Below, piece by piece: positions 21,376-60,969 of a stretch of 64,000 bases of DNA. Source of the DNA: Gossypium raimondii (Eukaryota > Streptophyta > Magnoliopsida > Malvales > Malvaceae). How positions within the stretch are numbered: the stretch's first letter is position 1; the number at the start of each line of letters is the position of its first letter. Location of the stretch: NCBI RefSeq assembly GCF_025698545.1, contig NC_068565.1:868001-932000 (forward strand). Direction: 5' to 3'. Position numbers and translations under genes: made by a program. The notes under the pieces are model-generated. The model was not told where the DNA came from, did no database searches, and saw nothing but the letters and a program-made list of their open reading frames with translations.

Positions 21376-21615
21376 TGTCACACACTCAAATATCTATTTT
21401 AAATTAGATTTCCAAGTTATCTTATATATTCTCGAAATACAAGTATCATGGTATTAATAGCACTTTGAAAGACTGAATATTACTCTTGAGATATATGAAA
21501 TATTTAATATTTAAAAGTTTGGAGAATTTTTTTTTAAAGATTAATTGACCTTAATCAATATTCAAAATATTTCATAACATTTGTTTTCTTTAAAACGTAT
21601 CAACGATCACCCACC

Positions 21616-21723
21616 ATGTCTTCGAGTGAAACAAAGAGAAGCAAATCTAAATCACCAATAAGAGTGATAAACATGGCCATTGAAAATGTGGATAGAAGTT
21701 ATACGTATTTTTGCTATGTATAG
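21616..21723 (+). other. Short upstream ORF (35 codons) in array unit 1
   Basis: ATG in the context CCACCATGT starts a 35-residue reading frame with 'SETKRSKSKSPIRV' and 'NMAIENVDRSYTYFC', ending 148 nt before the peptide gene. Other units keep the downstream part of this frame, including an internal ATG opening 'MAIENVKRSYKYFC', but have CCG in place of the first ATG. Whether it lies in the transcript depends on the unknown start site. It could be a uORF, a decayed exon or chance. Confidence 0.25.
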
Positions 21724-21871
21724 CTATTAGGCGCCGGACTAGTCAACAGCCCCCAAAATTCGCCAAAACTATCTCATTTTAAACACTTTAAATTCTGTCT
21801 CATTTTCATCCTTAAGCATCAATAAAAATATATCTCACTTTTTTTCTTAACCTTTTTAAAAAACATAAAAG

Positions 21872-22165
21872 ATGGCAAAGGTTCATTTCGTTGTGTTCTC
21901 ATTGGCTTTGGTGCTCTCAATCCAATTTGTAGTGGGACACGATGAGAAGGCTTTAGATGAGGCAGCATCCCCAGAAGCTGAAGATGCAATTTTAAGTTCA
22001 GGGGCAGCTAAACTTGTTGAAAACTTTAAAAGCTCTGCTGGAGATGATTCCCAGAGTGTGGATGGGCCAACTTCTGGCTTAGCTGATGAGATTGCAGCTT
22101 CTCCAGAATCAGAAGTAGAAGTTGCTCCTGAATCTACTGGTGAGATGAAGAGGAAAAGGGCATAG
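21872..22165 (+). CDS. Small secreted acidic peptide, array copy 1 (one module)
   Basis: A 97-residue protein of a family I do not recognise. Residues 1-22 form a clear signal peptide (Met-Ala-Lys, then a hydrophobic core 'VVFSLALVLSIQFVVG') with a likely cut before His-Asp-Glu. The mature part is rich in Glu, Asp, Ser and Ala and has no Cys. It contains 'DEAASPEAEDA', 'GAAKLVENFKSSAGDDSQS', one 26-residue module ('ADEIAASPESEVEVAPES') and a basic end (MKRKRA). No intron is needed. The design (secreted, acidic, repeated module, basic tail) would fit a peptide precursor or a structural cell-wall peptide; both are guesses. This unit's upstream region lacks the short segment that carries the G-box in other units. 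It is the left-most copy and differs from the others at its start (MAKVHF). Confidence 0.75.
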   Translation: MAKVHFVVFSLALVLSIQFVVGHDEKALDEAASPEAEDAILSSGAAKLVENFKSSAGDDSQSVDGPTSGLADEIAASPESEVEVAPESTGEMKRKRA

Positions 22166-23447: not shown

Positions 23448-24472
23448 TGTAACACCCCAAAACCCGGCCAAAAAGTTTTAACTGGATTCTAGAGGTCACA
23501 TTAACCATCAGAAAGGCCCAAATCAGAACGCCGTTCAAATTTCCAAATTTCTTTTCGAAAACTATTTTCTTCTTATGTTTAACAAAAATCTCATAATTAC
23601 CCTATCTTACATTACCAAATGTTTGTTTTCTCGTAGCATAAATAAATTTAAAACCAAATTATCAAATTCCTATTCGGTTTGTAAACCTTTTAGATTTGAG
23701 CAAATTGTTAATCGAAATTCCAAAATTAATATTGCAGCGAAAAATCCGATGTTTTACCATTGGTTGAAATTCATAAAGTTGACACTTAAAATATGGCCAA
23801 AACAATTAATTGACCATTGTCCATGCATGAGATTGTTGATCTTAATCAAAAGCGGAAACCATATCACATATCACAACTTATTTACAAATTTGATATCGAT
23901 ATTCATATCTAAAATTTTTTTTATTCAAACCAAACCGAGACAAGAAATTCTGAGACCTTCGATTTGCTAAGTCCAACACCTAACCTCCCAGATTACCTGA
24001 AAGGAGAAAACTAAAGGGTGAGCTATGAGGCTTAGTGTGAGTCTTAAATAGAAGAATATAAGCAGAGTCGTATAGTAGCAAACAATGTAGCGACAAGAAT
24101 CGAACAATCATACAACAGTCAATTTCTAATCATGTCAAAACAAAACATCACATTATGTTATCACAACAAAAAATGTAACCAAAACCAAATCCAACGTATC
24201 CAACCACTACACACCATCTCCAACCATCTGACACACACCAAATAGGGTATGCTAGAACCTTCCGTCCTCTACACATCAAATTTTGGGTTATCATGGACCC
24301 ATCCAACCGGAAAACACCTCAAAGTGGTCATTTGCCACTTGAATTATTGCGGATTTACCGCTACATAAAATAAATGCAGTTTAACTGCCTAATTGAACTT
24401 CCTTCACTTTAGAATCAAATCCCAACCAATATGCATATGCAAAACTTTCATTACATACAGATAAACATATCA

Positions 24473-24520
24473 AATCGAGACTAACATTACTTTAAATTTG
24501 AGGTAATGGATTGAAATTTA
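24473..24520 (+). repeat. Scrap of an array unit at a LINE junction
   Basis: The words 'TCGAGACTAACATTACTTTA' and 'GGATTGAAATTTAATTT' belong to the non-coding part of the peptide-gene unit. The LINE tail begins directly after it. The same junction, with the same unit words, occurs at about 33430-33490. Confidence 0.65.
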
Positions 24521-24524
24521 ATTT

Positions 24525-27500
24525 CTTTCTTTCTTTCTTTTTTTATCAAAAAAGACCTTAAAAGGCCGAACTCAATTATTAGCATCATGAATTACAAACT
24601 TGTGAATTTCTTTAGGGTAATTCTCATCGAAATCCTAAGAATAATTATTGTTTAAAACAAAATTAAAAATGAAGTAGGCTAATTTATTACAGCATCTAGG
24701 AGCCACGTTACATCAACCAATTCAAAAGTCTTCAAATGCATGCAGGTCTCGTACACACACTGCCCCAGAAACGTGATATCTTGTTGATGGGCGTCGAAAC
24801 CACCAAAAATAATTCTTATAGTAAAATAACTCTAAACAGTAGTAAAGAGTGGTAGTAGGGTCGAGTCCATAAGGATTGGATATTATAATTAACTTTCTTG
24901 TTTAACTTGTGATCAGAATTTTTATCGCGTCAAAAGTCGTGACAAAAGTCGTGCCCACAACTCCAAACGGACCTGCTGAAAAAAAACAAATAAATTAGGG
25001 GAGTTTTGAGAATGTTTTAGTAAGTAAATAATCGAAACAACATAAATAAACAATCAATTAATATTGGAGATAAATTTAAATTGGGAAATAAATTCGGATT
25101 TTTAAACAAAGATAATAAGCCTTAGCCCTATACTGGGTAGATTCCGGATTAAGAATCGGTCCTCGAAAATTAATTTCTCCTCCAAACAATATTAAGCTAG
25201 TTATAGCAGCTAGGAACATCCTAACCACCAATTCTTCCTCTCGTAGCTGGTCCCGGTACGACCTACATACCAACACTTACCGATTATTTAACCGAGATAC
25301 ACGTGTTCCCAATTCAAGATTTTGGCAACCTTGCACTCTGAATAACCCAACTCAGATTAACGGCCTCAACCGCGTGGGTCGTTTAAACCCGATCGCTTCT
25401 CCATTGATATGTTCTCGGAGATCTGAGTACAACACGGCCGACTCGTTTCTCCAACTATCCGCAAACACAATTTCAACCCAACGTGCACCTTTTGACTTGA
25501 AATCGAGTTAACTTTAAGGGATGAGTTGTCAATCCCGAGACTTAAGAAAAAAAAGTGAATACCCATTGGAAGAATTTTTAGGATGGATACGTATCTCACG
25601 ATTCCCAACCGGAAAGAACATCGGCCTAAAGCTAAGATGAAATTTAGTTAAACATGAAATTAATCATGCTTTGTAGGTTTTGAAAGATTATTTGATGATA
25701 ATGGAGAAGAATGGAAATGAAAGGTACTTGAAAAGAATTAGACAAATTTGACAAAGAACAAAGAAATAAAAATAAAACAGCAGTAACTATTGACGCATCA
25801 ACTTTGGAAGAAAAAAAAAGTATAATCCTATTTAATTCTAAATGGAAGTCAGATCTAAAATATAATGTGTTTTTTTCAAGGTACCTTAAAGTTCTATTTA
25901 TATACATGATATTTACTAAATTTGGCTTTAACCATTTCATATATAATTAAAGTTCCATCACCTTCTTATCGAGCAGTCTCATAACAGCTTCCAGCCAATC
26001 GATACAGTGCTCAAAATGGTTACTAATCAGCCTGTCGTCCAAGCCGCCACACGCGAGGATAGCAGCTGACGGGCAATCTTTAATGGAGTGGAGCAATGTT
26101 TCTTTCTCAGCCCTGCACCGCAGACACGCCAGACTCATATTAGGGCGAATGGAAGCAATTTTGCTATTAGTGGGCATAATGTCGTGACCCAACCTCCAGG
26201 CGAACACACGAACTTTGGGAAGGGTCTTTAGCTTCCAAATGATCTTCCAGAACAGACAATGAGGCCCTATGCCAATATTTTGAAGAATAAGCCAAGAATA
26301 TCCCGACTTAGTAGTAAAAAAACCATGATGACTATGGAACCAAACCTGAAGGCCTTTCGGGACATTAGGGATAATGGGAATATTACATATTTGGTCCCCC
26401 ATATTCTCACCATAAATGTCTAACACCCTTTTTCTATTCCAGCATTTGCGGTCAGTCTCTCACAACTCATGCACCTTCTTCTCAACCACATGCGCCTTAT
26501 GACAAATAATGGATTCCCCATTAAGCCCCTCAAAACCTCAGTTATCGCTATAGATGTCCACACTATTTCCATCACCCACCAACCACCCGAAGCCTTTCTC
26601 CAAGCTCCTCGCAGCAGTAACTATGCTACTCCAAGTAAACGACGGTTTATCCACTTTTTTAGGGTGGAAAAGATTTCCCTCCGGGAAATATTTAGAGCTA
26701 AGAACACGGAAACATAACGTGTCTTTTTTTGTAAGTAACCTCCAAACTTGTCTACCGTGAAGCGCCAAGTTGAATAAATGAAAATCTCTTAAGCCAAGGC
26801 CCCCCATGCCTTTTGGGGCACAAATATTATCCCAACCAAGCATAGCCCATCCAGGATCCTTGTTCTGACAACCCCACCACATTCTACGAACCTTTGATTG
26901 CATCTCCTCGATAATGCCTCTAGGAGCAAGAAAAACAGAAAGAGCATAAGTGGGTAAAACCTGAAGGATAGATTTAATAAAGACTTCTGTACTTCCATAA
27001 GATAATAGTCTTTTTGACCAACTGTTAATTCTACAAGAAAACCGATTAAGAATGTCGTTAAAAGGTAAATATTTTTTTTCCCGATATGAAGCGGTAACCC
27101 GAGATAATTATCCAAACTATCAACCACACGCATGCGAAGCATATTACCGAAATGCTCTCTTTGGATTATTGGGGTATTCGGACTAAAATAGACCATAGAT
27201 TTATCAAGGTTGATTTGTTGTCTCGATACCTTTTTCAAATTCTTTTAGAATTTTCGTAAAAGCCTTAACTTCCTATTTTTTATTTCTAATGAAGAGGAGA
27301 GCATCATTATCAAAAAACATATGGTTAATGCTATGTCCATTAAAACTAGCTCGTATACCCCGAATAAGCCCATAATGCTGAGCATGGAGAAGCATTCTCC
27401 ATAATGCCTCCATACAAAATAGAAAGAGATAGGGGGATCCCTTGATGGAGCCCCCTCTCTGGGATTATAGCATCCGAGAGAACCGCATTACATTTAACAA

Positions 27501-28240: not shown

Positions 28241-28349
28241 CTTTACATTATTCTTTGTAACACTTTCGAAGTCGGCCGTGGTGTCTAGGTCAGGTTTGGA
28301 GTGTTACATTAATAGACCTTAATCAATATTCAAATTTTTTTATATAGTG

Positions 28350-28673: not shown

Positions 28674-28967
28674 ATGGTAAAGGTTCCTTTCGTTGTGTTC
28701 CTATTGGCTTTGGTGCTCTCAATCCAATTCGTAGTGGGACAAGATGAGGAGGCTATAGATGAGGAAGTATCCCGGGAAGCCGACAAGGCACTTTTTAGTT
28801 CATCGCCAGCTAAACTCGTTGAAGACTTTAAAAGCTCTGCTGGAGATTATTCCCAGAGTGTGGATGGGCCAACTTCTGGCTTAGCTGATGAGATTGCAGC
28901 TTCTCCAAAATCGGAAGTAGAAGTTGCTACTGAATCTGCCGGTGGGGTGAAACGTAAAATGGCATAA
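28674..28967 (+). CDS. Small secreted acidic peptide, array copy 2 (one module)
   Basis: 97 residues with one module. The signal peptide is almost the same as in copy 1 (MVKVPFVVFLLALVLSIQFV). The mature part is the most diverged among intact copies: 'GQDEEAIDEEVSREADKALF' and 'SSSPAKLVEDFKSSAGDYSQ' replace the usual sequence, and the tail is 'GGVKRKMA'. The reading frame, length, acidic character and basic end are nevertheless kept, which suggests it is, or was until recently, under constraint. It lies between two mobile-element blocks, with its own G-box-bearing upstream region. Confidence 0.72.
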   Translation: MVKVPFVVFLLALVLSIQFVVGQDEEAIDEEVSREADKALFSSSPAKLVEDFKSSAGDYSQSVDGPTSGLADEIAASPKSEVEVATESAGGVKRKMA

Positions 28968-30393: not shown

Positions 30394-32600
30394 TGTAACC
30401 TCCCAAACCTAGCCTAGACATTAATTAGCGCTAGATTGAGAATGCTACATTAGTCACTGAAATCGCTAAGCTAACTTATGTTACTTTTGAATACCTTAAA
30501 TAAACTCACTTTAGGGAAAAAAATCGTAGTTGTACTTTGAGTTAGTTTAAAAACATTCATTTATTAGGTCATGTGTACTTAAGATTAATTTTATTATTGA
30601 CAGTGTTTTTTAGAAAAAAAAAATTGTTCGTTGCTTTACTTTGTAAAAGCTTGATGTCAACTAATGCAGCGGAAAAAACATTATTCATATCATTCTGGAA
30701 TCTAGTCACTTTATCAATTTGTTTTTCAAAACTGGTTTCTTTCCATTGCAACAAAAATTATAAAACAATATCAAATTTTAGTTAAGCCAGATATCATGCA
30801 TTTTCTGGTTATTATACTTGAGTAATTCATTCATGCAAAAATCCCCAAAAGAAAAATTACCATAGTAGAGACTAGAAATAATTAAAAATTACAAACCCAA
30901 AACCAATAGAGACTTAATAATACTTATTAAAAATAGTTCAAGGTTCAAGGTAATTCTCTGTATGCCAGGTTCGGTCCTAGTTTTGAGGTTTACCTGAAAA
31001 GTTAAACACTATGGGGGTGAGCTTATGAAAGCTCACTGTGAGTCGGATAGTTAATAAAACGGACATAAATATCCAATACAGTGAAACATATTAGCATTGA
31101 TAGAAGAACACATAACTGTCATTGAAATTTCATATCATTTTAGAGCCATTATAAAAATCGATGCCAAACGGTGTATGAGCATGGGTCATCATTCATTCGA
31201 TTAACAACCATTACTTTTCATACCATTCAATACAACAGAATACAATACATAGCATAAATCAATAACATTCGAGTATGTTGTGAGCATGATGCATTGCAAA
31301 ACGGTTCCTACCCAAACCATCTGCTACACACCACGAGTTCCCCAAAACCCGTCTGCCAAACTCCAATGTTTGCAAGCAAAGCTCGATGTGGTAGAAACCA
31401 CCGTATAACATAAATGCAGAAAATCTGTCAAGTAACATATAATACGATAAAATCAGCAATCCCCTCGGTACTACAGGTGCAATGCACTGACTACGTATAA
31501 ATGTGGACTTAATATGCCGCCAGTACTCCACGGAACTCCTCTGTCAACCACAAAAATAACCTGCCTCAATGCACATGCTATATGCCATATAATCTCATAC
31601 ATATCCCTAAATTAGTACTTTCATATTTAATTTGAATTTTTAACATATGCCCTTATTTATCAAATACTTTCAGTAAATGGAAATGATATTCCAACTTTCA
31701 ATTTACCAATAAAATGGTATCATTCAACAAATCACAATTTCATGTTCATTTACAACTTTTCTTTATGTACATGTATAGAAGCCTTTCGAACATATCATTA
31801 ACAAATCACTTGTACGAATATATCATGCATAACCCTTATTTCATTCATAAGAATACTATACACACAACCAATCATACATCAAATTAACCAAACATTCATG
31901 ACAACGTCATTCATTCAATCATTCAGTCAAACTGGCAACATTGCTACCATGCCAAACAGTTAGGGCTCGAAACGTACCTGATTCGACCACCTACAAATTA
32001 ATTATTTCGCTAACTAAGCCAAGCCCAATCAGCAAGCTAAATCACAAATTAAATAATAATTATCATTACCAATCAAGTTATTGAGTTTAAGACCCACACC
32101 TTATTTTACACTTTTCTGCAGCACACTAGCTAATCTCGTGGTTCCTCTAATAAGCGTTAAAATTAGCCTAAATTAAAACTCAGTATTAAACTCAATTATT
32201 ACACCTCTTAAACAGCCCCTAAACAGCCACTTATGGGTTCAATCCATTCGTCACAAATACATCAATTTTTCAAATCCAAACTAGTTACATTTCTTACACT
32301 GATTTGATGCAAATTGTACGCGCGAACGTCTTTCGACTTTATTATTGATTTGAGGCGTTTAAGTCGGCATCTAAACGATTAATTACTAAAAAATAAATAG
32401 CTAATTGATTATTAAAATTCTTTATTTGATCAATTAACAACTTTTCCCAATATCTAAATTGAATATATTCACTAGTTTACAATTATCCACACTTACGCTT
32501 TTCGAATTATCAGATCTGAAGTGTCAATTGATCAAGACCGATTTTCCCTAATTAACACATGTTTCAAAGCTTATTATGAGGGGTTAAAGAACCCAAAATC
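30394..32600. mobile_element. LTR-type element fragment
   Basis: Begins TGTAACCTCCCAAACCTAGC, a variant of the TGTAACACCCC end seen at 23448. It contains 'GGTGAGCTTATGAAAGCTCA', similar in place and wording to 'GGGTGAGCTATGAGGCTTAG' in the first block (about 24016). There is no coding domain. It runs up to the fragment of array copy 3. Confidence 0.55.
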
Positions 32601-32602
32601 AA

Positions 32603-32683
32603 GCTGACGAGATTGCAGCTCCAGATTCGGAAGTAGAAGTGGCTACTGAATCTGCCAGCGCAATGAAGAGGAAAATGGCATAG
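32603..32683 (+). pseudogene. Array copy 3, 5'-truncated (only the last 26 codons)
   Basis: The in-frame remnant starts in the module ('ADEIAAPDSEVEVATES'; one residue is lost compared with other copies) and ends with 'AMKRKMA' and a stop. Signal peptide, first half and promoter are absent; upstream is LTR-type sequence. Downstream the normal unit continues (CCCTGATGATGTTTAG) to about 33480, where the LINE tail begins. Confidence 0.85.
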
Positions 32684-33429: not shown

Positions 33430-33951
33430 CCTAAAATCTAGACTAACATTACTTTAAATTTAAGGTAATGGATTGAAATTCAATTCCTTTTTTTTTATCA
33501 AAAAAGACCTTAAAAGGCCAAACTCAATTAATAGCATCATGAATTACAAACTCGTGAATTTCTTTAGGGTAATTCACATTGAAATCCTTAAAACAATTAT
33601 GTTTTCAAGAAAATTAAAAATGATGTCAGCTAATTTATTACAGCATCTAGGAGCCCATGTCACATCAGCCACTTCAAAAGTCTTCAAATGCATACAGGTC
33701 TCGTACGCACACTGCCCCAGAAATGTGATATCCTGCCGATGGGCGTCGAAACCACAAAAAATAATTCCTAGAGTAAAATAACTCTAAACAATAGTAAAGA
33801 GCGGTAGTAGGGTCGAGTCCACCGGGATTGAATATTATAGCTAACTTTCGTGTTTAACTTGTGATCAAAATTTTTGTCGTGTCAAAAGTTGTGGCAAAAG
33901 TCGTGCCCACAACTCCAAACGTACATGCTGAAAAATAAACAAATAAATTAA
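33430..33951 (-). mobile_element. LINE tail plus nested insertion, second copy
   Basis: Array sequence ('GACTAACATTACTTTAAATT') runs into the 3' end of a LINE, whose poly-A-like tail lies near 33487-33498. On the minus strand the RNase H end reads 'VADVTWAPRCCNKLADI' (about 33690-33620), followed upstream by the same nested insertion as at 24792. The two copies align base by base, with scattered differences, over about 500 bp and then diverge near 25000 and 33951. They therefore come from one event. Confidence 0.75.
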
Positions 33952-35498: not shown

Positions 35499-35867
35499 AT
35501 GGTAAAAGTTCCTTTCGTTGTGTTCTCATTGGCTTTGGTGCTCTCAATCCAATTCGTATTGGGACAAGATGAGAAGGCTTTAGATGAGGCAGCATCCCCG
35601 GGAGCTGAAGACGTACTTTTGAGTTCAGAGGTAGCTAAACTTCTTGAAAACTTTAAAAGCTTTGCTGGAGATGATTCTCAGAGTGTGGATAGGCCAACTT
35701 CTAGTTTCGCTGATGAGATTGCAACTTCTCCAGAATCGAAAGTAGAAGTTGCTACTGAATCTGTGAGGCCACCTTCTGGCTTAGTTGATGAGATTGCAGC
35801 TTCCCCAGAATTAGAAGTAGAAGTTGCTACTAAATCTATCGGCGGGAGGAAGCGTAAAATGGCATAG
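35499..35867 (+). CDS. Small secreted acidic peptide, array copy 4 (two modules)
   Basis: 122 residues. The signal peptide is as in the others (ends 'SIQFVLG'). It has two modules: the first reads 'FADEIATSPESKVEVATES'. The second is one residue shorter, begins VRPPSG, and reads 'LVDEIAASPELEVEVATKS'. The basic end is GGRKRKMA. The many private substitutions compared with copies 5-13 make this the oldest-looking two-module copy. G-box at 35183-35188. Confidence 0.75.
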   Translation: MVKVPFVVFSLALVLSIQFVLGQDEKALDEAASPGAEDVLLSSEVAKLLENFKSFAGDDSQSVDRPTSSFADEIATSPESKVEVATESVRPPSGLVDEIAASPELEVEVATKSIGGRKRKMA

Positions 35868-37865: not shown

Positions 37866-38237
37866 ATGGTAAAGGTTCCTTTCATTGTGTTCTCATTGGC
37901 TTTGGTGTTCTCAATCCAATTCGTAGTAGGACACGACGAGAAGGCTTTAGATGAGGCAGCATCCCCAGAAACTGAAGATGCAATTTTAAGTTCAGGGGCA
38001 GCTAAACTTGTTGAAAACTTTAAAAGCTCTGCTGGAGATGATTCCCAGAGTGTGGATGGGCCAACTTCTGACTTAGCTGATGAGATTGCAACTTCTCCAG
38101 AATCAGAAGTAGAAGCTGCTACTGAATCTGCCGATGGGCCACATTCTAGCTTAGCTGATGAGATTGCAGTTTCTCCTGAATCAGAAGTAGAAGTTGCTAC
38201 AGAATCTGTCGATGGGAGGAAGCGTAAAATGGCATAG
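37866..38237 (+). CDS. Small secreted acidic peptide, array copy 5 (two modules)
   Basis: 123 residues, the standard two-module form: signal peptide (1-22), 'HDEKALDEAASPETEDAIL', 'GAAKLVENFKSSAGDDSQS', module 1 beginning VDGPTSD, module 2 beginning ADGPHSS, and tail DGRKRKMA. It is intact. G-box at 37548-37553. A 194-codon ORF on the opposite strand (38434-37850) covers the whole gene. This copy begins the regular part of the array. Confidence 0.78.
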   Translation: MVKVPFIVFSLALVFSIQFVVGHDEKALDEAASPETEDAILSSGAAKLVENFKSSAGDDSQSVDGPTSDLADEIATSPESEVEAATESADGPHSSLADEIAVSPESEVEVATESVDGRKRKMA

Positions 38238-40230: not shown

Positions 40231-40601
40231 ATGGTAAAGGTTCCTTTAGTTGTGTACTCATTGGCTTTGGTGCTCTCGATCCAATTCGTAGTGGGACACG
40301 ACGAGAAGGCTTTAGATTAGGAAACATCCCCAGAAGCTCAAGATGCAGTTTTAAGTTCAGGGCAACTAAACTTGTTGAAAACTTTAAAAGCTCTACTGGA
40401 GATGATTCCCAGAGTGTGGATCGGCCAACTTCTGACTTAGCTGATGAGAGTGCAGCTTCTCCAGAATCAGAAGTAGAAGTTGCTACTGAATCTGTCAATA
40501 GGCCACATTCTGGCTTAGCTGATGAGATTGCAGTTTCTCCAGAATCAGAAGTAGAAGTTGCTACTAAATCTGTCGGCGGGAGGATGCGTAAAATGGAATA
40601 G
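40231..40601 (+). pseudogene. Array copy 6, broken (nonsense and frameshift)
   Basis: The signal peptide region is intact, but the codon after 'HDEKALD' is TAG (40318-40320), where other copies have GAG. About 40 nt later a run of four G is shortened to three, shifting the frame. The rest, including both modules and the basic tail, remains readable in the other frame to the stop at 40601. The G-box at 39903-39908 is kept. The damage looks recent because the remainder is close to its neighbours. Confidence 0.88.
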
Positions 40602-42453: not shown

Positions 42454-42825
42454 ATGGTAAAGGTTCCTTTAGTTGTGTTCTCATTGGCTTTGGTGCTCTC
42501 AATCCAATTCGTAGTGGGACACGACGAGAAGGCTTTAGATGAGGCAGAATCCCCGGAAGCTGAAGATGCAGTTTTAAGTTCAGGGGCAGCTAAACTTGTT
42601 GAAAACTTTAAAAGCTCTGCTGGAGATGATTCCCAGAGTGTGGATGGGCCAACATCTGACTTCGTTGATGAGATTGCAGCTTCTCCAGAATCAGAAGTAA
42701 AAGTTGCTACTGAATCTGTCAATGGGCCACATTCTGGCTTAGCTGATGAGATTGCAGTTTCTCCAGAATCATAAGTAGAAGTTGCTACTGAATCTGTCGG
42801 TGGGAGGATGCGTAAAATGGCATAG
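42454..42825 (+). pseudogene. Array copy 7, truncated by a nonsense change in module 2
   Basis: Identical in plan to the 123-residue copies, but a GAA codon in the second module is TAA (42772-42774), ending the protein at 106 residues and removing 'EVEVATES' and the basic tail. The lost part is otherwise intact up to 42825. A 106-residue secreted product could still be made, so it may be functional or a new pseudogene. G-box at 42136-42141. Confidence 0.75.
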
Positions 42826-44832: not shown

Positions 44833-45204
44833 ATGGTAAAGGTTCCTTTAGTTGTGTTCTCATTGGCTTTGGTGCTCTCAATCCAAATCGTAGTGGGACA
44901 CGACGAGAAGGTTTTAGATGAGGCAGCATCGCCGGAAGCTGAAGATTCAGTTTTAAGTTCAGGGGCAGCTAAACTTGTTGAAAACTTTAAAAGCTCTGCT
45001 GGAGATGATTCCCAGAGTGTGGATGGGCCAACTTCTGACTTAGCTGATGAGATTGCAGCTTCACCAGAATTAGAAATAGAACTTGCTACTGAATCTGTCG
45101 ATGGGCCACATTCTAGCTTAGCTGATGAGATTGCAGTTTCTCCAGAATCAGAAGTAGAAGTCGCTACTGAATCTGTAGGCGGGAGGAAGCGTAAAATGGC
45201 ATAG
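44833..45204 (+). CDS. Small secreted acidic peptide, array copy 8 (two modules)
   Basis: 123 residues, intact. Differences from copy 5: SIQIVVG at the end of the signal peptide, 'PEAEDSVL', and 'SPELEIELATES' in module 1. The changes are conservative (Val/Leu/Ile, Glu kept), which keeps the acidic character. G-box at 44512-44517. An antisense ORF (45356-44817, 179 codons) covers it. Confidence 0.78.
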   Translation: MVKVPLVVFSLALVLSIQIVVGHDEKVLDEAASPEAEDSVLSSGAAKLVENFKSSAGDDSQSVDGPTSDLADEIAASPELEIELATESVDGPHSSLADEIAVSPESEVEVATESVGGRKRKMA

Positions 45205-47206: not shown

Positions 47207-47578
47207 ATGGTAAAGGTTCCTTTAGTTGTGTTCTCATTGGCTTTGGTGCTCACAATCCAATTTGTAGTGGGACACGACGAGAACGCTTTAGATGAGGCAG
47301 CATCCCCGGAAGCTGAAAATGCAGTTTTAAGTTCAGGGGCAGCTAAACTTGTTGAAAACTTTAAAAGCTCTGTTGGAGATGATTCCCAAAGTGTGGATGG
47401 ACCAACTTCTGACTTAGCTGATGAGATTGCAGCTTCTCCAGAATCAGAAGTAGAAGCTGCTACTGAATCTGTCAATGGGCCACATTCTGGCTTAGCTGAT
47501 GAGATTGCAGTTTCTCCAGAATCAGAAGTAGAAGTTGCTACTGAATCTGTCGGCGGGAGGAAGCGTAAAATGGCATAG
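47207..47578 (+). CDS. Small secreted acidic peptide, array copy 9 (two modules)
   Basis: 123 residues, intact. Private changes are LTIQFVVG in the signal peptide, HDENALDEAA, PEAENAVL and KSSVGDD. Modules begin VDGPTSD and VNGPHSG, and the tail is GGRKRKMA. G-box at 46889-46894; an antisense ORF lies at 47691-47191. HDENAL is shared with copy 10, so these two neighbours are probably sister copies. Confidence 0.78.
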   Translation: MVKVPLVVFSLALVLTIQFVVGHDENALDEAASPEAENAVLSSGAAKLVENFKSSVGDDSQSVDGPTSDLADEIAASPESEVEAATESVNGPHSGLADEIAVSPESEVEVATESVGGRKRKMA

Positions 47579-49578: not shown

Positions 49579-49945
49579 ATGGTAAAGGTTCCTTTAGTTG
49601 TGTTCTCATTGGCTTTGGTGCTCTCAATCCAATTCGTAGTGGGACACGACGAGAACGCTTTAGATGAGGCAGCATCCCCAGAAGCTGAAGATGCAGCTTT
49701 AAGTTCAGGGGCAGCTAAACTTGTTGAAAACTTTAAAAGCTCTGCTGGAGATGATTCCCAGAGTGTGGATGGGCCAACTTCTGACTTAGCTGATGAGATT
49801 GCGCTTCTCCGAATCGAGTAGAAGTTGCTCTTGAATCATCGATGGGCCACATTCTGGCTTAGCTGATGAGATTGCAGTTTCTCCAGAATCAGAAGTAGAA
49901 GTTGCTACTGAATCTGTCGGGGGGAGGAAGCGTAAAATGGCATAG
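49579..49945 (+). pseudogene. Array copy 10, frameshifted
   Basis: Normal through module 1 as far as 'LADEIA'; then a cluster of single-base losses, mostly of A (GCAGCTT read as GCGCTT, CCAGAATCAG read as CCGAATCG), gives a stop at 49821. The locus is 367 nt long against 372 in copy 9, a net loss of 5 nt. The second module and tail are intact beyond. So many one-base losses within about 50 nt could reflect a local assembly or consensus error instead of a real pseudogene. G-box at 49260-49265. Confidence 0.75.
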
Positions 49946-52271
49946 TGGACCGCGATGATGTTTAGAAAGCAACATAGACCCAAATTTTCTTTAAAGAGGC
50001 GGCTGAAGCTGCTAAAAATAATAAAAACAATGAAAATAATAATAAAAGCAACATCCATAGTTTTTATACATTATGTCTTGCAGTAATTTACTTTTAAAAA
50101 TAAAAAAAGTTACCTTCACATTTGTTCGCACAATTTTTGTTACTTCTTTTCTAAATTATATGCACGTTACTAATAGGTATATTTATTTTTCATTTCAATA
50201 AAGTAGATGACATTTTATTTTGAGCAATTAATATTCTTACACTTAGAAAATAATCTTTTAATTCCTCTTTTATACAATTCAATTTATGCTTTATCGTGCT
50301 TAATTTGTCATTAATTTATCAATTCAACATACAATATAACATACACCAACTTAATTTCATAACAATTTCGTATATCAGGTAAGTCATCCAATTTTCTATT
50401 TTATTCAGTTTAGTCTCTATTTCGATATTTAATCTAAATCATATCAATTCAACTCAAGCAATCATAAATAACTCAACTTCAACTCAATATAATGTAGAGT
50501 GATATTAACATGCAGAAAAGAAATGGTTCCTAAATCATAGAAATGCAAACCAAAATTTTGAGCTCCTCGTCAACAACTTTGGATTTTCCTTTCCTTCTCC
50601 GAGTCAACGTTAGATATGGATTGACATAAAACATATAGAACTACCGATAATCAACAAATTCTCAATCAATTATCAATTTATACAATATTTTTAATTTATT
50701 CAATCTAGTCCCTAAAACCAAGACTAACATTATTTTAAATTTATGGTTATAGATTGAAATTCAATTTCATTAGGGACCTCCTATTTCTTATTCCTACTTC
50801 CAGTTTTACATTTTATTTAATTTTTCCCGAATATACAAAACTATCAATTAAGCTTTACAATTTAGTCATTTTCTTAAACTAAGCTTAATTTCTATCAATT
50901 TAACACCTAAAACTTCAAGAAATCAATAATGATGGTTTTCTAAAACTTCAACAGTTTAACAAATTAGTACATGGGCTAGCTAAACCAAGTACCCACGACC
51001 TCAAACAATTTTTTTTAAAGAAAAAGACTTTGAAATGCTCCCCAATTAGGCTTAAAAAATGGTTGTTTTAGGTTTTTAGGCTTTGGATGATGAAGAAGAA
51101 GAAACATGAAAAAGTTTCCCCTAAGGTTTTATATTTATACTTTAATCAAACCCTAATTTATCTATTTATCTTTATTTAATCACAATATATAAACTTAATC
51201 TATCATTACAAAATAAATGGATTCTTCCATCACAAAGCACTAACTCATATTTCAAAATTGTTTAATTTCTATTTTGGACCTTTGGTTAATTGCAATTGAA
51301 GTCCTCAGGCCCATTTCTAATTAAAAGTCTATAACGATTGAACTTTTACAATTTATTATCGATATGATGGTATTGCTCTTTTCTCACAATATTTGTTAAG
51401 AATTTGTCACACACTCAAATACCTATTTTTATTTCAATTTCTATGTTGTCTTATATATTCTCTAAATACAAGTATCATCGTACTAATATCACTTTGAAAC
51501 AAGATAACTATACTCTTAAGATATATGAAATATTTAGTATTTAAAGGTTTTGAGGACAATTATTTAAAAGATTAATAGACCTTAATCAATATTCAAATTG
51601 TTTTATATAGTGCACTTGCTTAAAATAAGTATACCATTCATAACATTTGTTTTCTTTAAAACACATCAACGATCACCCACACCGTCTTCGAGTGAAGGAA
51701 AAAGAAGTAAATTTAAACCACCAATAATAGTGATAAACATGGCCATTGAAAATGTAAAGATAAGTTATAAGTATTTTTGTGGCTAATAGGCACAAAACTA
51801 GTCAATGGCCCCCTAAATTCGCAAAAAAAATCTCATTTTCTACTCTTTAAATTTGGTCTCATTTTCATCCTTAAGCATGAATAAAAATATATCCTACTTT
51901 TTTCCTTAACCTTTTTAAAAAACATAAAACATGGTGAAGGTTCCTTTAGTTGTGTTCTCATTGGCTTTGGTGCTCCCAATCCAATTCGTAGTGGGACACG
52001 ACGAGAAGGCTTTAGATGAGGCAGCATCCCCGGAAGCTGAAGATGTAGTTTTAAGTTCAGGGGCAGCTAAACTTGTTGAAAACTTTAAAAGCTCTGCTGG
52101 AGGTAATTCCTAGAGTGTGGATGGGCCAACTTCTGACTTAGCTGATGAGATTGCAGCTTCTCCAAAATCAGAAGTAGAAGTTGCTATTGAATCTGTCGAT
52201 GGGCCACATCCTGGCTTAGCTAATGAGATTGCAGTTTCTCCAGAATCAGAAGTAGAAGTTGCTTCTGAATT

Positions 52272-53789
52272 TGTACAACCCAAATTTAGCCCAGGCCTCA
52301 CCAAATCATACCAGGCCCACTAACCTTAAACCAAGACCCAAAGCCTCAACCCAATTACAAGCCTAACCCACCAAAACCAAAGCCCAAATCAGCAACTCAA
52401 TTCAGCCCAATAGACCCAAGCCCAAGTGCCAAAGTCAGACTAGGGTTTCAGACATTCTGAAACCCTGTGCCGCCTCTTCTGACCCCTCGTCTACCGCCGT
52501 CGTTGTCACGTCATCAGCACAAGTGGAGTACCCCACTTGCCCCGGACGCCCCCACCTGCTTCACCTGCAAAAGAAAAGACACAATAGCAGTAGAAAATAG
52601 GGTTTTTGTAACAAAAATGGGCTATAAAAGCCATGAAAAACAAATTGTAAGGGGATTCGGCCCCTATTTCTACAAGGAACAGAAAATAAAAAAAAGGTGG
52701 AACATCCATTTCTGCTCGGTTTTCCTTTTTCCTTTTTTTCTTACTGTTACTATTATTTTTTACAAGTTTATTTCTTTCATTTTTTAACACAAAAATATAA
52801 AAAAAAGAATAAAAAGGAGAAGCCTTTTACCTTTTTTGCCGTCACCGGAGCCCTCAAGAGAGTCATCGGAGAGAAAAAAGGGAGACTTTTGGTCTCCTCG
52901 CCATCACAAGACGCAAGAATACTGCAAGGCGTCGACGGCCGGTGCAGTGGTTTCTCACTGGACCGATGGCCAGATTCTGGGGAAGAGAACGAGAGAGAGA
53001 GAGCTTTCTCTCTGATTTTTTTTTTAAAATGAAAAAACTGATTGTTTTGTTTTTTTTTAATATTTATACTAAACATAAAACGGCGCCGTTTTGAGGCCCC
53101 TGACCCGCGCGGTGACCCGACCTGAGGGGAGGATCCGCGTGTTTTTGCCTCTCGAATTATTTGCGCAATTGGTCCCTCCAATTTTGTGGCGTTTTCAATG
53201 CAGTTTTTCGCATATTTTCAATTTTGGCCTTAAATTTTTTTGTTGTTTCGATTTGGTCCTTAGACCGTGCGCTTGGATTCCGCTAGAACGGCACCGTTTC
53301 AGTGACGTGGGAATATTGCACGTTTGATCCTCATTCTTTTGTAGCGTGTTTTAATTACCCCTTTTTTATTTATAATTTGAGCCCTTAAATTTATCCCTGA
53401 TTTCGATTTAATCCCTTCCGTTTTTTATTTTATTTAATTTTATTTCTCTTTAACTATTATTTTCTGTTTTGTTTATATTTTCATTTATCTTATATATATA
53501 TGTGTATACGTTATTTTAATATGTGCTTTTTATTATATATTATTATTAAAACTAATATAATTATTATTATTAGCATTATTATTAATATTATTAAATACCT
53601 TTTTACTTCAAGTAATGTTATATGTATATACATACATACAATTATTTTAGTATATATACGTGCGTACATCCCATGTTTCATATATGTTTATATGTACATA
53701 TTTATTATTATTATTTTACAATCTCAAGCATGTATGTGAACAAGTTTTTATGATATATGTATGTACATATTTTTTTTAAATTTGTATAA

Positions 53790-53830
<41 letters not shown>

Positions 53831-54930
53831 TTGTTATATCTTAGATTTTTATATTTATGTACATACACATGTTTTTATAACGTACATACCTATATTTTTA
53901 TATGTTTGCATTTTATAATCTATATACATATACATGTAAATACTTATATTTTTATATCTTATACTTCATATATATATTTTCATATTTTCATAATTTTATG
54001 TATATACATACATATATATTTCCTTATATGTACATACACATGTCCATATTTTATAATTTTCATCTATTTTCCTTTATTGTTTTTTAATGTTCATTTATGT
54101 ATTTATTTATATGTCCATTTTATGTTTTAGTTTATTTTTTATTTTTTATTTGTTATGGTATATACATGGTGTTTTTTTAATTCGTTTTTGCTCATATTAT
54201 TTTTGTTCATATTATCATATTTATTATTCCATTATGCATATTAACACCATGCTTCAAAAGGAATTTTTTTAAGTACGGCAATACTTTGCATTTGGAAATT
54301 CGAGAAAACATGCCCTAATGTGTTGGGTTTCGATTTTTCTCGTTCAACCAAATAGCTAAATATCCTTTTAAAATTTTCAAAATAAGACAATGTTTTGTGT
54401 TTGGAAATTCGAGAAAACGTGCCCTAATGTGCTGGGTTTCGATTTTTCTCGTTAAACCAAATAGCCAAATATTCTTCCAAAAATTTCAAAATAAGGCAAT
54501 GTTTTGCGTTTGGAAATTCGAGGAACGTGCTCTAATGTGCTAGGTTTCGATTTCTCGTTTAACCAAATAGCCAAATATCCTCTTGAATTTTAATCCATGT
54601 CATTCGAGTTTTTTAAGGATCGTATTTTAAATTTCTTTAAAGTTTTCAACTTTCGACATTAAGACGTAAACTATTCAACTTGTTACCAGTTTTTGGGCGT
54701 TACGAGGGTGCTAATCCTTCCTCGTACGTAACCGACTCCCGAACTCATTTTTCTGAATTTCGTGGACCAACTCGTTGTTTTAATAAAATTAAATTGTTTA
54801 TTAAAAACAACCACTTTTGCGAGGTGACCCGATCACACCTCATCAAAAAAGAATTGGTGGCAACTCCCATTTTCATTTTTTTCTCAAAACCCAAGTTCAC
54901 ACTGTTTCGTCAAAAAAAATGGTGGCTACA
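52272..54930. mobile_element. LTR-type insertion, probably a solo LTR, in array copy 11
   Basis: 2659 bp starting TGTACAACCCAAATTTAGCC and ending GGTGGCTACA. It is flanked by GAATT (52267-52271) and GAATC (54931-54935), the latter being the sequence in uninterrupted copies. TG...CA ends with a 5-bp duplication are standard for LTR retrotransposons. No gag, protease, reverse transcriptase or integrase is visible and no second LTR is found, so a solo LTR left by recombination is likely. Inside are a GC-rich patch (about 52850-53330), a TA/TATG-rich region (53480-54180) with (TA)n at 53791-53825, and a tandem triplet near 54275-54590. Confidence 0.8.
54275..54590. repeat. Three tandem copies of about 105-108 bp within the LTR insertion
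   Basis: Copies start near 54275, 54380 and 54489. Each contains 'TTTGGAAATTCGAGAAAACG' or a variant, 'GCCCTAATGTGCTGGGTTTC', and 'AACCAAATAGCCAAATAT'. Differences among the three are few. Subrepeats are common in LTRs. Confidence 0.8.
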
Positions 54931-56968
54931 GAATCTGTCGGCAGGAGGAAGCGTAAAATGGCATAGTGGACCCCGATGATGTTTAAAAAGCAACATAGAC
55001 AAAAATTTTCTTTTAAGAGGCGGCTAAAGCTGCTAAAAATAATAAAAACAATGAAAATAATAATAAAAGCAACATCCATAGTTTTTGTAAAATATGTCTT
55101 GCAGTAATTTACTTTCAAAAATAAAAAAAAGTTACTTTCACATTTGTTTGCACAATTTTTGTCACTTCTTTTCTAAATTATACATACGTTCCCAATAGGT
55201 ATATTTATTTTCATTTTAATAAAGTAGATGACATTTTATTTTGAGCAATTAATATTCTTACACTTACAAAATAATCTTTTAATTCCTCTTTATACAATTC
55301 AATTTATGCTTTATCGTGCTTAATTTTTCATTAATTTATCAATTCAACATACAATATAACATACACCAACTTAATTTCATAACAATTTCGTATATCAGGT
55401 AAGTCATCCAATTTTCTATTTTATTCAGTTTAGTCTCTATTTCGATATTTAATCTAAATCATATCAATTCAGCTCAAGCAATCATAAATAACTCAACTTC
55501 AACTCAATATAATGTAGAGTGATATTAACATGCAGAAGAGAAATGGTTCCTGAATCATTGAAATACAAACCAAAATTTTGAGCTCCTAGTCAACAACTTT
55601 GGATTTTCCTTTCCTTCTCCGAGTCAACGTTAGATATGGATTGACATAAAACATATAGAACTATCGATAATCAACAAATTCTCAATCAATTATCAATTTA
55701 TACAAAATTTTTAATTTATTCAATCTAGTCCCTAAAACCAAGACTAACATTATTTTAAATTAATGGTTATAGATCGAAATTCAATTTCATTAGGGACCTC
55801 CTATTTCTTATTCCTACTTCCAGTTTTACATTTTATTTAATTTTTCCCTAATATACAAAACTATCAATTAAGCTTTACAATTTAGTCATTTTCTTAAACT
55901 AAGCTTAATTTCTATCAATTTAACACCTAAAACTTCAAGAAATCAATAATGATAGTTTTCTAAAACTTCAACAGTTTAACAAATTGGTACATGGGCTAGC
56001 TAAACCAAGCATCCACAACCTCAAACAAAATTTTTTAAAGAAAAAGACTTGGAAATGCTCGCCAATTAGGGACCGAATTGATTGAGCTTCAAAAATGGTT
56101 GTTTTAGGTTTTTAGGCTTTGGATGATGAGGAAGAAGAAAGATGAAAAATTTTCCCCTGAGATTTTATATTTATACTTTAATCAAACCCTAATTTATCTA
56201 ATTATCTTTATTTAATCAGAATATATAAACTTAATATATCATTACAAAATAAATGGATTCTTCCATCACAAAGCACTAACTCATATTTCAAAATTGTTTA
56301 ACTGCTATTTTGGACCTTTGGTTAATTGCAATTGAAGTCCTCAAGCCCATTTCTAATTAAAAGTCTATAACGATTGAACTTTTACAATTTCTTATCGGTA
56401 TGATGGTTTTGCTCTTTTTCTCCCAATATTTGTTAAGAATTTGTCACACACTCAAATACCTATTTTTTATTTAAATTTCTAAGTTGTGTTATATATTCTC
56501 TAAATACAAGTATCATCGTACAAATATCACTTTGAAACAAGATTACTATACTCTTAAGATATATGAAATATTTAGTATTTAAAAGTGTTGAGGAAAATTA
56601 TTTAAAAGATTAATAGACCTTAATCAATATTCAATTTTTTTTATATAGTGCACGTGCTTAAAATAAGTATACCATTCATAACATTTGTTTTCTTTAAAAC
56701 ACATCAACGATCACCGACACCGTCTTCGAGTGAAGTAAAGAGAAGTAAATTTAAACCACCAATAATAGTGATAAACATGGCCATTGAAAATGTAAAGAGA
56801 AGTTATAAGTATATTTGTGGCTAATAGGCACAAAACTAGTCAATGGCCCCCTAAATTCGCAAAAAAAATCTCATTTTATACTCTTTAAATTTGGTCTCAT
56901 TTTCATCCTTAAGCATCAATAAAAATATATCTTACTTTTTTCCTTAACCCTTTCAAAAAACATAAAAG

Positions 56969-57340
56969 ATGGTAAAGATTCCTTTCGTCGTGTTTTCATT
57001 GGCCTTGGTGCTCTCAATCCAATTCGTAGTGGGACACAACGAGAAGGCTTTAGATGAGGCAGCATCCCCAGAAGCTGAAGATGCAGTTTTAAGCTCAGGG
57101 GCAGCTAAACTTGTTGAAAACTTTAAACGCTCTGCTGGAGATGATTCCCAGAGTGTGGGTGGGCCAACTTCTGACTTAGCTGATGAGATTGCAGCTTCTC
57201 CAGAATCAGAAGCAGAAGTTGCTACTGAATCTGCCGATGGGCCACATTCTAGCTTAGCTGATGAGATTGCAGTTTCTCCAGAATCAGAAGTAGAAGGTTC
57301 TACAGAAGCTGTCGATGGGAGGAAGCGTAAAATGGCATAG
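56969..57340 (+). CDS. Small secreted acidic peptide, array copy 12 (two modules)
   Basis: 123 residues, intact. Private changes are HNEKAL instead of HDEKAL, 'VENFKRSAGDDSQSVGG', SEAEVATES in module 1, and SEVEGSTEA in module 2, the least conserved module 2 among intact copies. The 3' flank lacks about 65 bp that follow the stop in other copies (no CCCCGATGATG). G-box at 56651-56656; antisense ORF at 57474-56953. Confidence 0.75.
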   Translation: MVKIPFVVFSLALVLSIQFVVGHNEKALDEAASPEAEDAVLSSGAAKLVENFKRSAGDDSQSVGGPTSDLADEIAASPESEAEVATESADGPHSSLADEIAVSPESEVEGSTEAVDGRKRKMA

Positions 57341-59262
57341 TGGATAAAAATAATAAAAACAATGAAAATAATAATAAAAGCAACATCCATAGTTTTTGTA
57401 AAATATGTCTTGCAGTAATTTACTTTTAAAAATAAAAAAGTTACTTTCAAATTTGTTCGCACAATTTTTGTCACTTCTTTTCTAAATTATACGCACGTTC
57501 CCAATCGGTATATTTATTTTTCATTTTAATAAGTAGATGACATTTTATTTTTAGCAATTAATATTCTTAAACTTACAAAATAATCTTTTAATTCCTCTTT
57601 ATACAATTCAATTTATGCTTTATCGTGTTTATTTTGTCATTAATTTATCAATTCAACATACAATATAACATACACAAAATTAATTTCATAACAATTTCAG
57701 ATATCAAGTAAGTCATGCAATTTTCTATTTTTTTCAGTTTAGTCTCTATTTCGATATTTAATCTAAATCATATCAATTCAGCTCAAGCAATCATAAATAA
57801 CTCAACTTCAACTCAATATAATGTAGAGTGATATTAACATGCAGAAAAGAAATGGTTCCTGAATCATAGAAATACGAACCAAAATTTTGAACTCCTCGTC
57901 AACAACTTTGGATTTTCCTTTCCCTCTCGGAGTCAACGTTAGATATGGATTGGCATAAAACATATAGAACTATCGATAATCAACAAATTCTCAATCAATT
58001 ATCAATTTATACAAAATTTTTAATTTATTCAATCTAGTCCCTAAAAAGAAGACTAACATTATTTTAAATTCATGGTTATAGATTGAAATTTAATTTCGTT
58101 AGGGACCTCCTATTTCTTATTCCTACTTCCAGTTTAACATTTTATTTAATTTTTCCCTAATATACAAAGCTATCTATTAAGCTTTAATTTAGTCATTTTC
58201 TTAAACTAAGCTTAATTCCTATCAATTTAACACCTAAAACTTCAAGAAATCAATAATGATAGTTTTCTAAAACTTCAACAGTTTAACAAATTGGTACGTG
58301 GGCTAGCTAAACCAAGCACCCACGACCTCAAACAAATTTTTTTAAAGAAAAAGACCTTGAAATGCTCGCCAATTAGGGACCGAATTGATTGAGCTTCAAA
58401 AATGGTTGTTTTAGGTTTTTAGGCTTTGGATGATGAGGAAGAAGAAAGATGAAAAGATTTCCCCCAAGGTTTTATACTTATACTTTAATCAAACCCTAAT
58501 TTATCTAATTATCTTTATTTAATCACAATATATAAACTTAATCTATCATTACAAAATAAACGGATTCTTCCATCCCAAAGCACTAACTCATATTTCAAAA
58601 TTTTTAACTGCTATTTTGGACCTTTGGTTAATTGCAATTGAAGTCCTCAAGCCCATTTCTAATTAAAAGTCTATAATGATTGAACTTTTACAATTTATTA
58701 TCGATATGATGGTATTGCTCTTTTTCTCACAATATTTGTTAAGAATTTGTCACACACTCAAATACCTATTTTTATTTAAATTCTCGGTTGTGTTATATAT
58801 TCTCTAAATACAATCACTTTAAAACAGTATAACTATACTCTTAAGATATATGAAATATTTAGTATTTAAAAGTGTTGAGGAAAATTATTTAAAAGATTAA
58901 TAGACCTTAATCAATATTCAAATTTTTTTATATAGTGCACGTGCTTAAAATAAGTATACCATTCATAACATTTGTTTTCTTTAAAACACATCAACGATCA
59001 CCCACACCGTCTTCAAGTGAAGCAAAGAGAAGTAAATTTAAACCACCAATAATAGTGATAAACATGGCCATTGAAAATGTAAAGAGAAGTTATAAGTATT
59101 TTTGTCGTGTATTGCTAATAGGCACAAAACTAGTCAATGGCCCCCTAAATTCGCAAAAAAAATCTCATTTTATACTCTTTAAATTTGGTCTCATTTTCAT
59201 CCTTAAGCATGAATAAAAATATATCTTTCTTTTTTCCTTAACCTTTTCAAAAGACATAAAAG

Positions 59263-59556
59263 ATGGTAAAGGTTCCTTTCGTTGTGTTCTCATTGGCTTT
59301 GGTGCTCTCAATCCAATTCGTAGTGGGACACGACGAGAAGGCTTTAGATGAGGCAGCATCCCCGGAAGCTGAAGATGTAGTTTTAAGTTCAGGGGCAGCT
59401 AAACTTGTTGAAAACTTTAAAAGCTTTGCTGGAGATGATTCCCAGAGTGTGGATGGGCCAACTTCTGACTTAGCTGATGAGATTGCAGCTTCTCCAGAAT
59501 CAGAAGTAGAATTTGCTACTGAATCTGTCGGCGGGAGTAAGCGTAAAATGGCATAG
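59263..59556 (+). CDS. Small secreted acidic peptide, array copy 13 (one module)
   Basis: 97 residues, intact, with one module ('LADEIAASPESEVEFATES') and the tail GGSKRKMA. Sequence outside the module resembles copies 5-12, so the single-module state here probably arose by loss of one module and not by long separate history, unlike copies 1 and 2. G-box at 58938-58943. It is the right-most copy. Confidence 0.77.
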   Translation: MVKVPFVVFSLALVLSIQFVVGHDEKALDEAASPEAEDVVLSSGAAKLVENFKSFAGDDSQSVDGPTSDLADEIAASPESEVEFATESVGGSKRKMA

Positions 59557-60534
59557 TGGACCCCGATGATGTTTAGAAAGTAACATTAGACCCAATTTTT
59601 TTTAAAGAGGTGTCTAAAGCTGTTAAAAATAATAAAAACAATGAAAAAATAATAAAAGCAACATTCATAGTGTTTGTAAAATATGTCTTGCAGTAATTTA
59701 CTTTTAAAAATAAAATAAAAAAAGTTACTTTCACATTACAATTTTTATCACTTCTTTTCTAAATTATACATACGTTCCCAATAGGTATATTTATTTTTCA
59801 TTTTAATAAAGTAGATGACATTTTATTTTGAGCAATTAATATTCTTAAACTTACAAATAATCTTTTAATTCCTCTTTATACAATTCAATTTATGCTTTAT
59901 CGTGCTTATTTTATCATTAATTTATCAATTCAACATACAATATAACATACACCAACTTAATTTCATAACAATTTCAGATATCGTAAGTCATGCAATTTTC
60001 TATTTTATTCAGTTTAGTCTCTATTTCGATATTTAAACTAAATCATATCAATTCAGCTCAAGCAATCATAAATAACTCAACTTCAACTCAATATAATGTA
60101 GAGTGATATTAACATGCAGAAAAGAAATGGTTCCTAAATCATAGAAATGCAAACCAAAATTCTGAGCTCCTTGTCATTAACTTTGGATTTTCCTTTCCTT
60201 CTCAACGAGTCCGAGTCAACGCTAGATATGGATTGACATAAAACATATAGAACTATTGATAATCAACAAATTCTCAATCAATTATCAATTTATACAAAAT
60301 TTTCAATTTATTCAAATTGATTGAGCTTCAAAAATGGTTTTTTTAGGCTTTTAGGCTTTGGACGATGAGGAAGAGGAAAGATGAACAAATTTCCCCTAAG
60401 GTTTTATATTTATACTTTAATCAAACCCTAATTTATCTAATTATCTTAATTTAATCACAATATATTAACTTAATCTATAATTAATCAAAATAAATGGATT
60501 CTTCCATCACAAAGAACTAACATCAAAAGCTAAA

Positions 60535-60969
60535 TTTGTTACTATACTAATCAAAATATATACAATTGGCGAAAGGCATTAACACCATGATTAATTATCC
60601 TTAATTACTCACTTTTGAAATTGACCGTAATTAAATTGCTCCAATATTTTTAAAGCCAATTTGTTCAATTTTGAAATTGAGAACGACTACATATGTCTTT
60701 TACCTTAATTGTATACAAAACATTATAAAATTACATGTATTATTACAATTTTTACATTTGTCAAGTTCAAAGATCAAATTTTAAAATATACAAAACTAAA
60801 AATAACTAAATTATAATATAAAAACTAAATACTCAGCTTCCACACAGAGATTAACAGTAGAATTTAACCAATTTTATATCATTATCATTTTTTTTTTCCT
60901 TTTCTACCTAAATCAAATCAAAAGACTATTTGCAATCACCTAATAAAAAAAATTTGAACACATATTCCT
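60535..60969. other. Spacer between the array and the sugar transporter
   Basis: AT-rich sequence following the end of the last array unit. It should contain the 3' UTR of the minus-strand transporter. Nothing else can be supported. Confidence 0.5.

Follow-up and report, generated by a model that had tools for sequence, protein, structure and literature searches.

A tandem array of genes for small, acidic, cysteine-free and apparently secreted proteins in Gossypium raimondii

Does the tandem array of a small, unrecognised gene in Gossypium raimondii encode a family of secreted peptides that is maintained by selection, or is it an unstable repeat that carries along one or two working genes? 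The array lies at ~21.4-60.5 kb in the stretch of 64,000 nucleotides analyzed here (RefSeq assembly GCF_025698545.1, contig NC_068565.1, positions 868,001 to 932,000 of the forward strand; hereinafter the window, with positions counted from its first nucleotide), and comparison of the 64-kb window with itself resolves it into 13 head-to-tail units, all on the plus strand. The reading that we tentatively favor, with a probability of about 0.45, is that the genes encode acidic, cysteine-free peptide precursors that are secreted, and that they form a young tandem family, specific to its lineage, in which a few copies are maintained and the recent central block is mostly drifting surplus; the restriction to one lineage is a presumed part of this reading.

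Organization of the array

The repeat unit of 2.2-2.4 kb carries promoter-side sequence together with an open reading frame (ORF), and the units are 82-96% identical to each other in matches as long as 2.4 kb, which is well above chance. The 5' part of the gene is present in 12 of the 13 units, with A at position -3 and G at position +4 of the start codon in each case, and the remaining unit is a 3' fragment. From 35.5 kb onward, the gene starts are spaced by 2.22-2.38 kb, or by 5.04 kb where an insertion intervenes. In eight of the 12 genes, the ORF is open from ATG to stop, and the other four are broken. The original prediction of thirteen copies arranged head to tail on one strand, with a unit of about 2.3-2.4 kb, is thereby upheld, and the "seven or eight" intact copies that it anticipated turn out to be eight. 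The copies are listed below (the first coordinate is the start of the coding sequence in the 12 copies that retain the 5' part; "module" refers to a 26-residue segment of the protein; aa, amino acids).

Copy 1: 21872..22165, plus strand, intact ORF, 97 aa, single module, C-terminus KRKRA
Copy 2: 28674..28967, plus strand, intact ORF, 97 aa, single module, segment 23-45 strongly diverged
Copy 3: 32591..32683 (approximate), plus strand, 3' fragment with the last module and the basic end, followed by ~0.9 kb of unit sequence (tblastn, blastn)
Copy 4: 35499..35867, plus strand, intact ORF, 122 aa, two modules
Copy 5: 37866..38237, plus strand, intact ORF, 123 aa, two modules
Copy 6: 40231..40601, plus strand, broken by a nonsense codon and a frameshift
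Copy 7: 42454..42825, plus strand, broken by a nonsense codon inside module 2
Copy 8: 44833..45204, plus strand, intact ORF, 123 aa, two modules
Copy 9: 47207..47578, plus strand, intact ORF, 123 aa, two modules
Copy 10: 49579..49945, plus strand, broken by frameshifts
Copy 11, 5' part: 51931..52275, plus strand, nonsense codon, then cut by an insertion
Insertion in copy 11: 52276..54921 (boundaries approximate), strand not assigned, 2.65 kb
Copy 11, 3' end: 54922..54966, plus strand, resumes beyond the insertion
Copy 12: 56969..57340, plus strand, intact ORF, 123 aa, two modules
Copy 13: 59263..59556, plus strand, intact ORF, 97 aa, single module, 78-bp gap positioned unlike that in copies 1 and 2

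The unit has been duplicated repeatedly in one orientation, the copies vary by having one or two modules, and some have been broken by mutation or insertion. Upstream of the genes, CACGTG is found in 10 of the 12 copies and a TTGAC-type box likewise in 10; these elements are given no weight.

Features of the encoded proteins

All eight intact proteins begin with a hydrophobic segment that ends with VVG or VLG, is followed by H/Q-D/N-E and, judged by hydropathy, resembles a signal peptide. The mature part contains no cysteine in any of the eight proteins, has a pI of 4.05-4.35 and a net charge of -9 to -19, and lacks any further hydrophobic stretch. Serine accounts for 14-16% of the residues, there are only 3-6 prolines in the mature part, and Pro, Ala, Ser and Thr together (PAST) make up 37-42%; each intact copy also contains 1-4 S-x-E sites. 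The signal-peptide-like N-terminus and the cysteine-free acidic mature part that had been predicted for the family hold in all eight intact copies. By contrast, the repeated module, predicted as a common feature, is double in five of these proteins and single in three, and the KRKMA-like end holds as a basic C-terminus in all eight although the exact sequence KRKMA is found in seven, with KRKRA in copy 1. An AlphaFold model of a single sequence had low confidence (mean pLDDT 60.8, pTM 0.17), and a fold could not be derived from it; single-sequence input to AlphaFold often yields poor models. From these features, we infer that the product is secreted upon removal of ~22 N-terminal residues and is largely disordered.

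The family is unrecognised when set against Pfam, PDB, prokaryotic genomes, plasmids and literature text. Scanning of seven of the intact proteins (all except that of copy 9) against Pfam-A gave no match above the curated cut-off; two sub-threshold matches, both for copy 2, had E values of 0.098 and 0.18, with the best score of 13.9 bits against the required 25. The protein of copy 8, the only one compared in these searches, had no sequence match in PDB, produced 591 pattern stretches but no relative in the prokaryotic genome collection, and had three chance-level matches in plasmid records (E 2 to 8). No paper was found in the literature text for six sequence strings of the proteins, and among the papers listed for small secreted proteins of cotton and for its orphan or tandem families of secreted peptides, including a review on peptide hormones (PMC11756074), no title or abstract opening describes the array. 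A match to a well-described family, which the original prediction had named as contrary evidence, was thus encountered neither in Pfam, for seven of the eight proteins, nor in PDB, for one.

Among the candidate peptide families, regular expressions for the consensus patterns of CLE, PIP/IDA, CEP, RGF, PSK, RALF and CTNIP matched none of the eight proteins. A loose DY pattern of PSY occurs in one of them (DYS in copy 2) and a loose PPS pattern of systemin in another (copy 4), in each case as three residues without the remaining motif. Cysteine-rich peptides (RALF, defensin, LTP, EPF, GASA) are rejected on account of the missing conserved cysteines. Arabinogalactan proteins are recognized by clustered Ala/Ser/Thr-Pro and a PAST content of at least ~50%. 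The cotton proteins resemble these proteins and AG peptides in being rich in Ser and Ala and secreted-looking, but differ in having a lower PAST content and no clustered [AST]P pair repeats in any of the eight, as well as in the lack of a hydrophobic stretch in the mature part. The predicted lack of affiliation with CLE, CEP, PIP, RALF, defensin, LTP and arabinogalactan proteins is therefore borne out; for PSY, it stands with respect to the full motif, the loose DY of copy 2 being the only blemish.

Evolutionary constraint

Distances between the flanking sequences separate nine recent copies (copies 5 to 13, with starts from 37866 to 59263) from three older ones, namely, copies 1, 2 and 4. All three older copies are open, an outcome that had a probability of 0.000-0.034 over the eight settings of a neutral-decay simulation. 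In the recent block, 5 of the 9 copies are open; starting from an intact ancestor of 123 aa, the neutral simulation leaves 2.0-5.1 of 9 open on average (the probability of at least five open copies is 0.06-0.67, depending on the indel rate and the tree), so this block fits neutral decay. The simulation employed base composition and indel lengths derived from the flanks, two trees (flank and coding), and four chosen indel rates from 0 to 0.07 per substitution; it was rooted at the basal split of the tree, assumed a 123-aa ancestor although two of the older copies encode 97 aa, and counted a lost stop codon as a break. The openness of eight of the 12 ORFs (the probability of at least eight is 0.000-0.12) was dropped as evidence of selection because the recent block alone fits neutral decay given an intact ancestor. 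In-frame length differences among the intact ORFs were also rejected as evidence since intact ORFs cannot differ in length in any other way.

Within the older copies, the number of changes expected in each segment was derived from the copy's own flank divergence from the recent-block consensus. In codons 46-114, copy 1 has accumulated 2 changes where 14.4 are expected and copy 2 has 6 where 11.4 are expected, giving 8 against 25.8 for the pair (Poisson P 4e-5). The signal peptide region has 7 changes against 13.6 expected in copies 1 and 2 (P 0.04) and 10 against 18.3 in all three older copies (P 0.026). In the intervening codons 23-45, the three older copies together contain 28 changes against 19.1 expected (P 0.033), mainly owing to copy 2, where 6.3 changes are expected but 16 occur, 14 of them nonsynonymous and 2 synonymous (P 0.0008, uncorrected for the 72 tests performed), and less so to copy 4, with 9 against 4.9. 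A conserved signal followed by a variable spacer and a conserved module, the arrangement seen in copy 2, is the typical layout of a peptide precursor.

Several observations weigh against selective maintenance. The segments were picked after inspection of the alignment, and copy 4 is not conserved in codons 46-114 (18 changes against 14.2 expected), so that for all three older copies the deficit shrinks to 26 against 40 (P 0.012). Copy 1 has no variable spacer (3 changes against 7.9 expected in codons 23-45), whereas its codons 115-123 evolved faster than the flank (9 against 3.1, P 0.005); furthermore, gene conversion may mimic constraint in this copy because silent changes are few there too. 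Whole coding sequences changed faster than their flanks in the intact copy 12 (19 against 9.2, P 0.003) and in the broken copies 6 (16 against 7.5, P 0.005) and 11 (12 against 6.8, P 0.04), and the branches add up to 0.50 in the coding tree compared to 0.43 in the flank tree. Codon models fitted to the eight intact copies gave a ratio of nonsynonymous to synonymous rates (dN/dS, omega) of 0.98 (GY) and 0.78 (MG, no kappa), as well as 0.92 (MGK), 0.96 (MGK, F1X4) and 0.90 (GY, F1X4), the latter three each at the first logged optimum. An omega of 1 is not rejected, at a cost of 0.03 log-likelihood units under GY (-1109.33 vs -1109.35) and 0.16 under MGK (-1083.65 vs -1083.82).

The pooled pairwise NG pN/pS, in a pool that takes in the broken copy 7, is 0.76. 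The ratio of nonsynonymous to synonymous differences from the consensus (N:S) is 94:40 in the intact copies and 42:9 in the broken ones; neither deviates from the neutral expectation of 2.79:1 (P 0.38 and 0.20, respectively), and the two are not separable from each other (Fisher P 0.13). For the family overall, constraint is not visible. Evidence of this kind, that is, dN/dS near 1, had been specified as speaking against the original prediction, and the observed range of 0.76-0.98, with 1 not rejected, comes close to it; the signs of constraint are confined to the older copies and do not extend to all of these in all parts.

Proposed function and alternatives

If the older copies do make peptide precursors, the product would enter the secretory pathway and shed ~22 N-terminal residues. 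The active part might then begin near residue 46 and take in the module or modules (AKLVENFKSSAGDDSQSVDGPTSxLADEIAxSPESEVEVATES) and, by analogy with other precursors, might be trimmed from the variable leader and the basic tail; both of these are weaker propositions than secretion. Like the products of the SCOOP, CEP and PIP precursors, the released peptide would conceivably serve as an extracellular signal that a receptor perceives. Under this scheme, the conserved region of the older copies would be the source of the active peptide, selection would keep a few copies, and the recent block would represent decaying surplus.

The precursors of most peptide families (CEP, PIP/IDA, CLE, PSY, RGF, PSK, RALF, CTNIP, systemin) combine a signal peptide with a short conserved stretch, and the cotton proteins resemble them in this respect. 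The nearest organizational match is PROSCOOP. In the excerpted text of PMC6382344, PMC8448819 and PMC11331138, the PROSCOOPs are described as small, cysteine-free, sequence-divergent proteins of one lineage that possess a signal peptide, with some members containing two copies of the motif, and with a 37-kb tandem cluster on Arabidopsis chromosome 5 that includes transposon remains. Repeated peptide modules are also mentioned for CEP and PIP precursors (excerpts of PMC6382344). The cotton proteins, compared by description only, are likewise small, tandemly encoded and endowed with one or two modules, and all eight show the SCOOP combination of a signal peptide, as judged by hydropathy, with the absence of cysteine. 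They differ in being strongly acidic and in coming from a host outside the Brassicales, the order to which PROSCOOPs and MIK2 were confined across the 350 plant proteomes surveyed, according to the excerpted text of PMC11331138. The PROSCOOP C-terminus is reported to be conserved, with an S-x-S (excerpts of PMC8448819), and the SCOOP motifs are not located at the extreme C-terminus (excerpts of PMC6382344). In cotton, SQS occupies residues 60-62 in all eight intact copies, once per copy, with an additional SSS in copy 2, but it lies in the middle of proteins of 97-123 aa, immediately ahead of the repeated module, and S-x-S alone is non-specific. The shared SQS is weak evidence of SCOOP membership because of the 14-16% serine and the shared ancestry of the copies. 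Accordingly, we describe the array as organized like PROSCOOP and do not claim that it belongs to that family.

The alternative that survives best is passive amplification, whereby one or two functional genes sit in an unstable tandem array, the extra copies are neutral and copy number brings no benefit. The recent block, which falls within the neutral simulation, the omega near 1, and the inseparable substitution counts of intact and broken copies are all compatible with this scenario, under which the locus would be ordinary. We nevertheless consider it rather unlikely, given that it does not readily account for the retention of all three older ORFs or for the conservation, relative to the flanks, of the signal peptide and the module region in two of them.

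A more specific version of the peptide hypothesis, which seems unlikely to us as stated, posits a phytocytokine family restricted to Gossypium or to the Malvaceae, independent of SCOOP in origin, convergent in design and served by a receptor of its own, with a module that has doubled in number inside the array and a spacer that is diversifying. Slightly more doubtful still is the possibility that the product is an acidic structural or ion-binding protein of the wall or apoplast that functions as an intact protein and releases no signalling peptides. The strong negative charge of the mature part, the S-x-E sites and the doubling of the module in five of the eight intact copies, reminiscent of repetitive extracellular proteins, would suit such a role; the scarcity of proline, the PAST content and the complete lack of arabinogalactan-type [AST]P clusters would not, and, as an indirect argument, the small size of the proteins and the variable spacer of copy 2 are better suited to a precursor. 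Finally, the idea that the actual feature is an overlapping antisense ORF (~166 aa) or a noncoding transcript appears very improbable: although six of the 12 genes are overlapped by an open antisense ORF of 145-178 aa, for instance at 42438-42938, opposite a broken sense ORF, and two further genes by shorter ones (134 and 90 aa), the N-terminal part of the antisense ORF originates in AT-rich, low-complexity sequence on the downstream side of the sense gene, and it is the sense ORF that has a consistent start context and a signal-like N-terminus. The antisense ORFs of 145-178 aa are located at 37850-38350, 40178-40714, 42438-42938, 44817-45317, 47191-47691 and 56953-57390; such long antisense ORFs are probably a by-product of codon composition.

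Returning to the precursor family with a few maintained copies, cotton would have its own local source of fast-evolving apoplastic peptides, should the older copies prove to encode functional secreted peptides. Comparable families, such as SCOOP, carry immune signals elsewhere, and their shortness and lack of a common domain make them easy to overlook in annotation. The array also provides a clean series of module-number change, copy decay and insertion at a single locus.

Interruptions and surroundings of the array

The array is interrupted by, among other sequences, a reverse transcriptase reading frame on the minus strand (27346-28122), which we judge to be LINE-like (long interspersed nuclear element), and a repeat common to 24472-25008 and 33434-33961. 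The insertion that splits copy 11 has an A-run at its end, next to an imperfectly duplicated target sequence, and is for these reasons likely to be retroposon-like; it contains a ~109-bp tandem repeat (2.8 copies) at 54285-54581. Copies 2 and 4 are truncated at the same upstream point (~28256-28308 and 35090-35141) by related sequence that ends with GTGTTACA and resembles the end of a long terminal repeat; this common cut suggests a single insertion that was duplicated afterwards. Related stretches at 17966-18138 and 60529-60701 form an inverted pair with 74% identity, the latter adjoining the downstream end of the array.

Eight of the 10 reading frames tested in the window had domain matches, and those flanking the array include ANTH, VIT1, Glyco_transf_8/GAUT_1 and Sugar_tr, the last in a sugar transporter that we take to be of the split monosaccharide-sensing type. 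No tRNA was detected in the window by ARAGORN under the bacterial code. The only Rfam family detected over the window is MIR7502, with a full-length match at 8270-8414 on both strands (95.8 and 71.2 bits); this family has been reported as gar-miR7502 in Gossypium arboreum (excerpts of PMC5471329), in keeping with the Gossypium origin of the DNA. Sequence overlapping or adjacent to the match recurs in the window at 7908-8092, 3150-3292 and 63894-63990, and for this reason MIR7502 looks as if it was derived from a small dispersed repeat. A separate tandem array with a unit of ~127 bp occupies 13356-14667, with about five copies in 13763-14414 and further, diverged copies around them.

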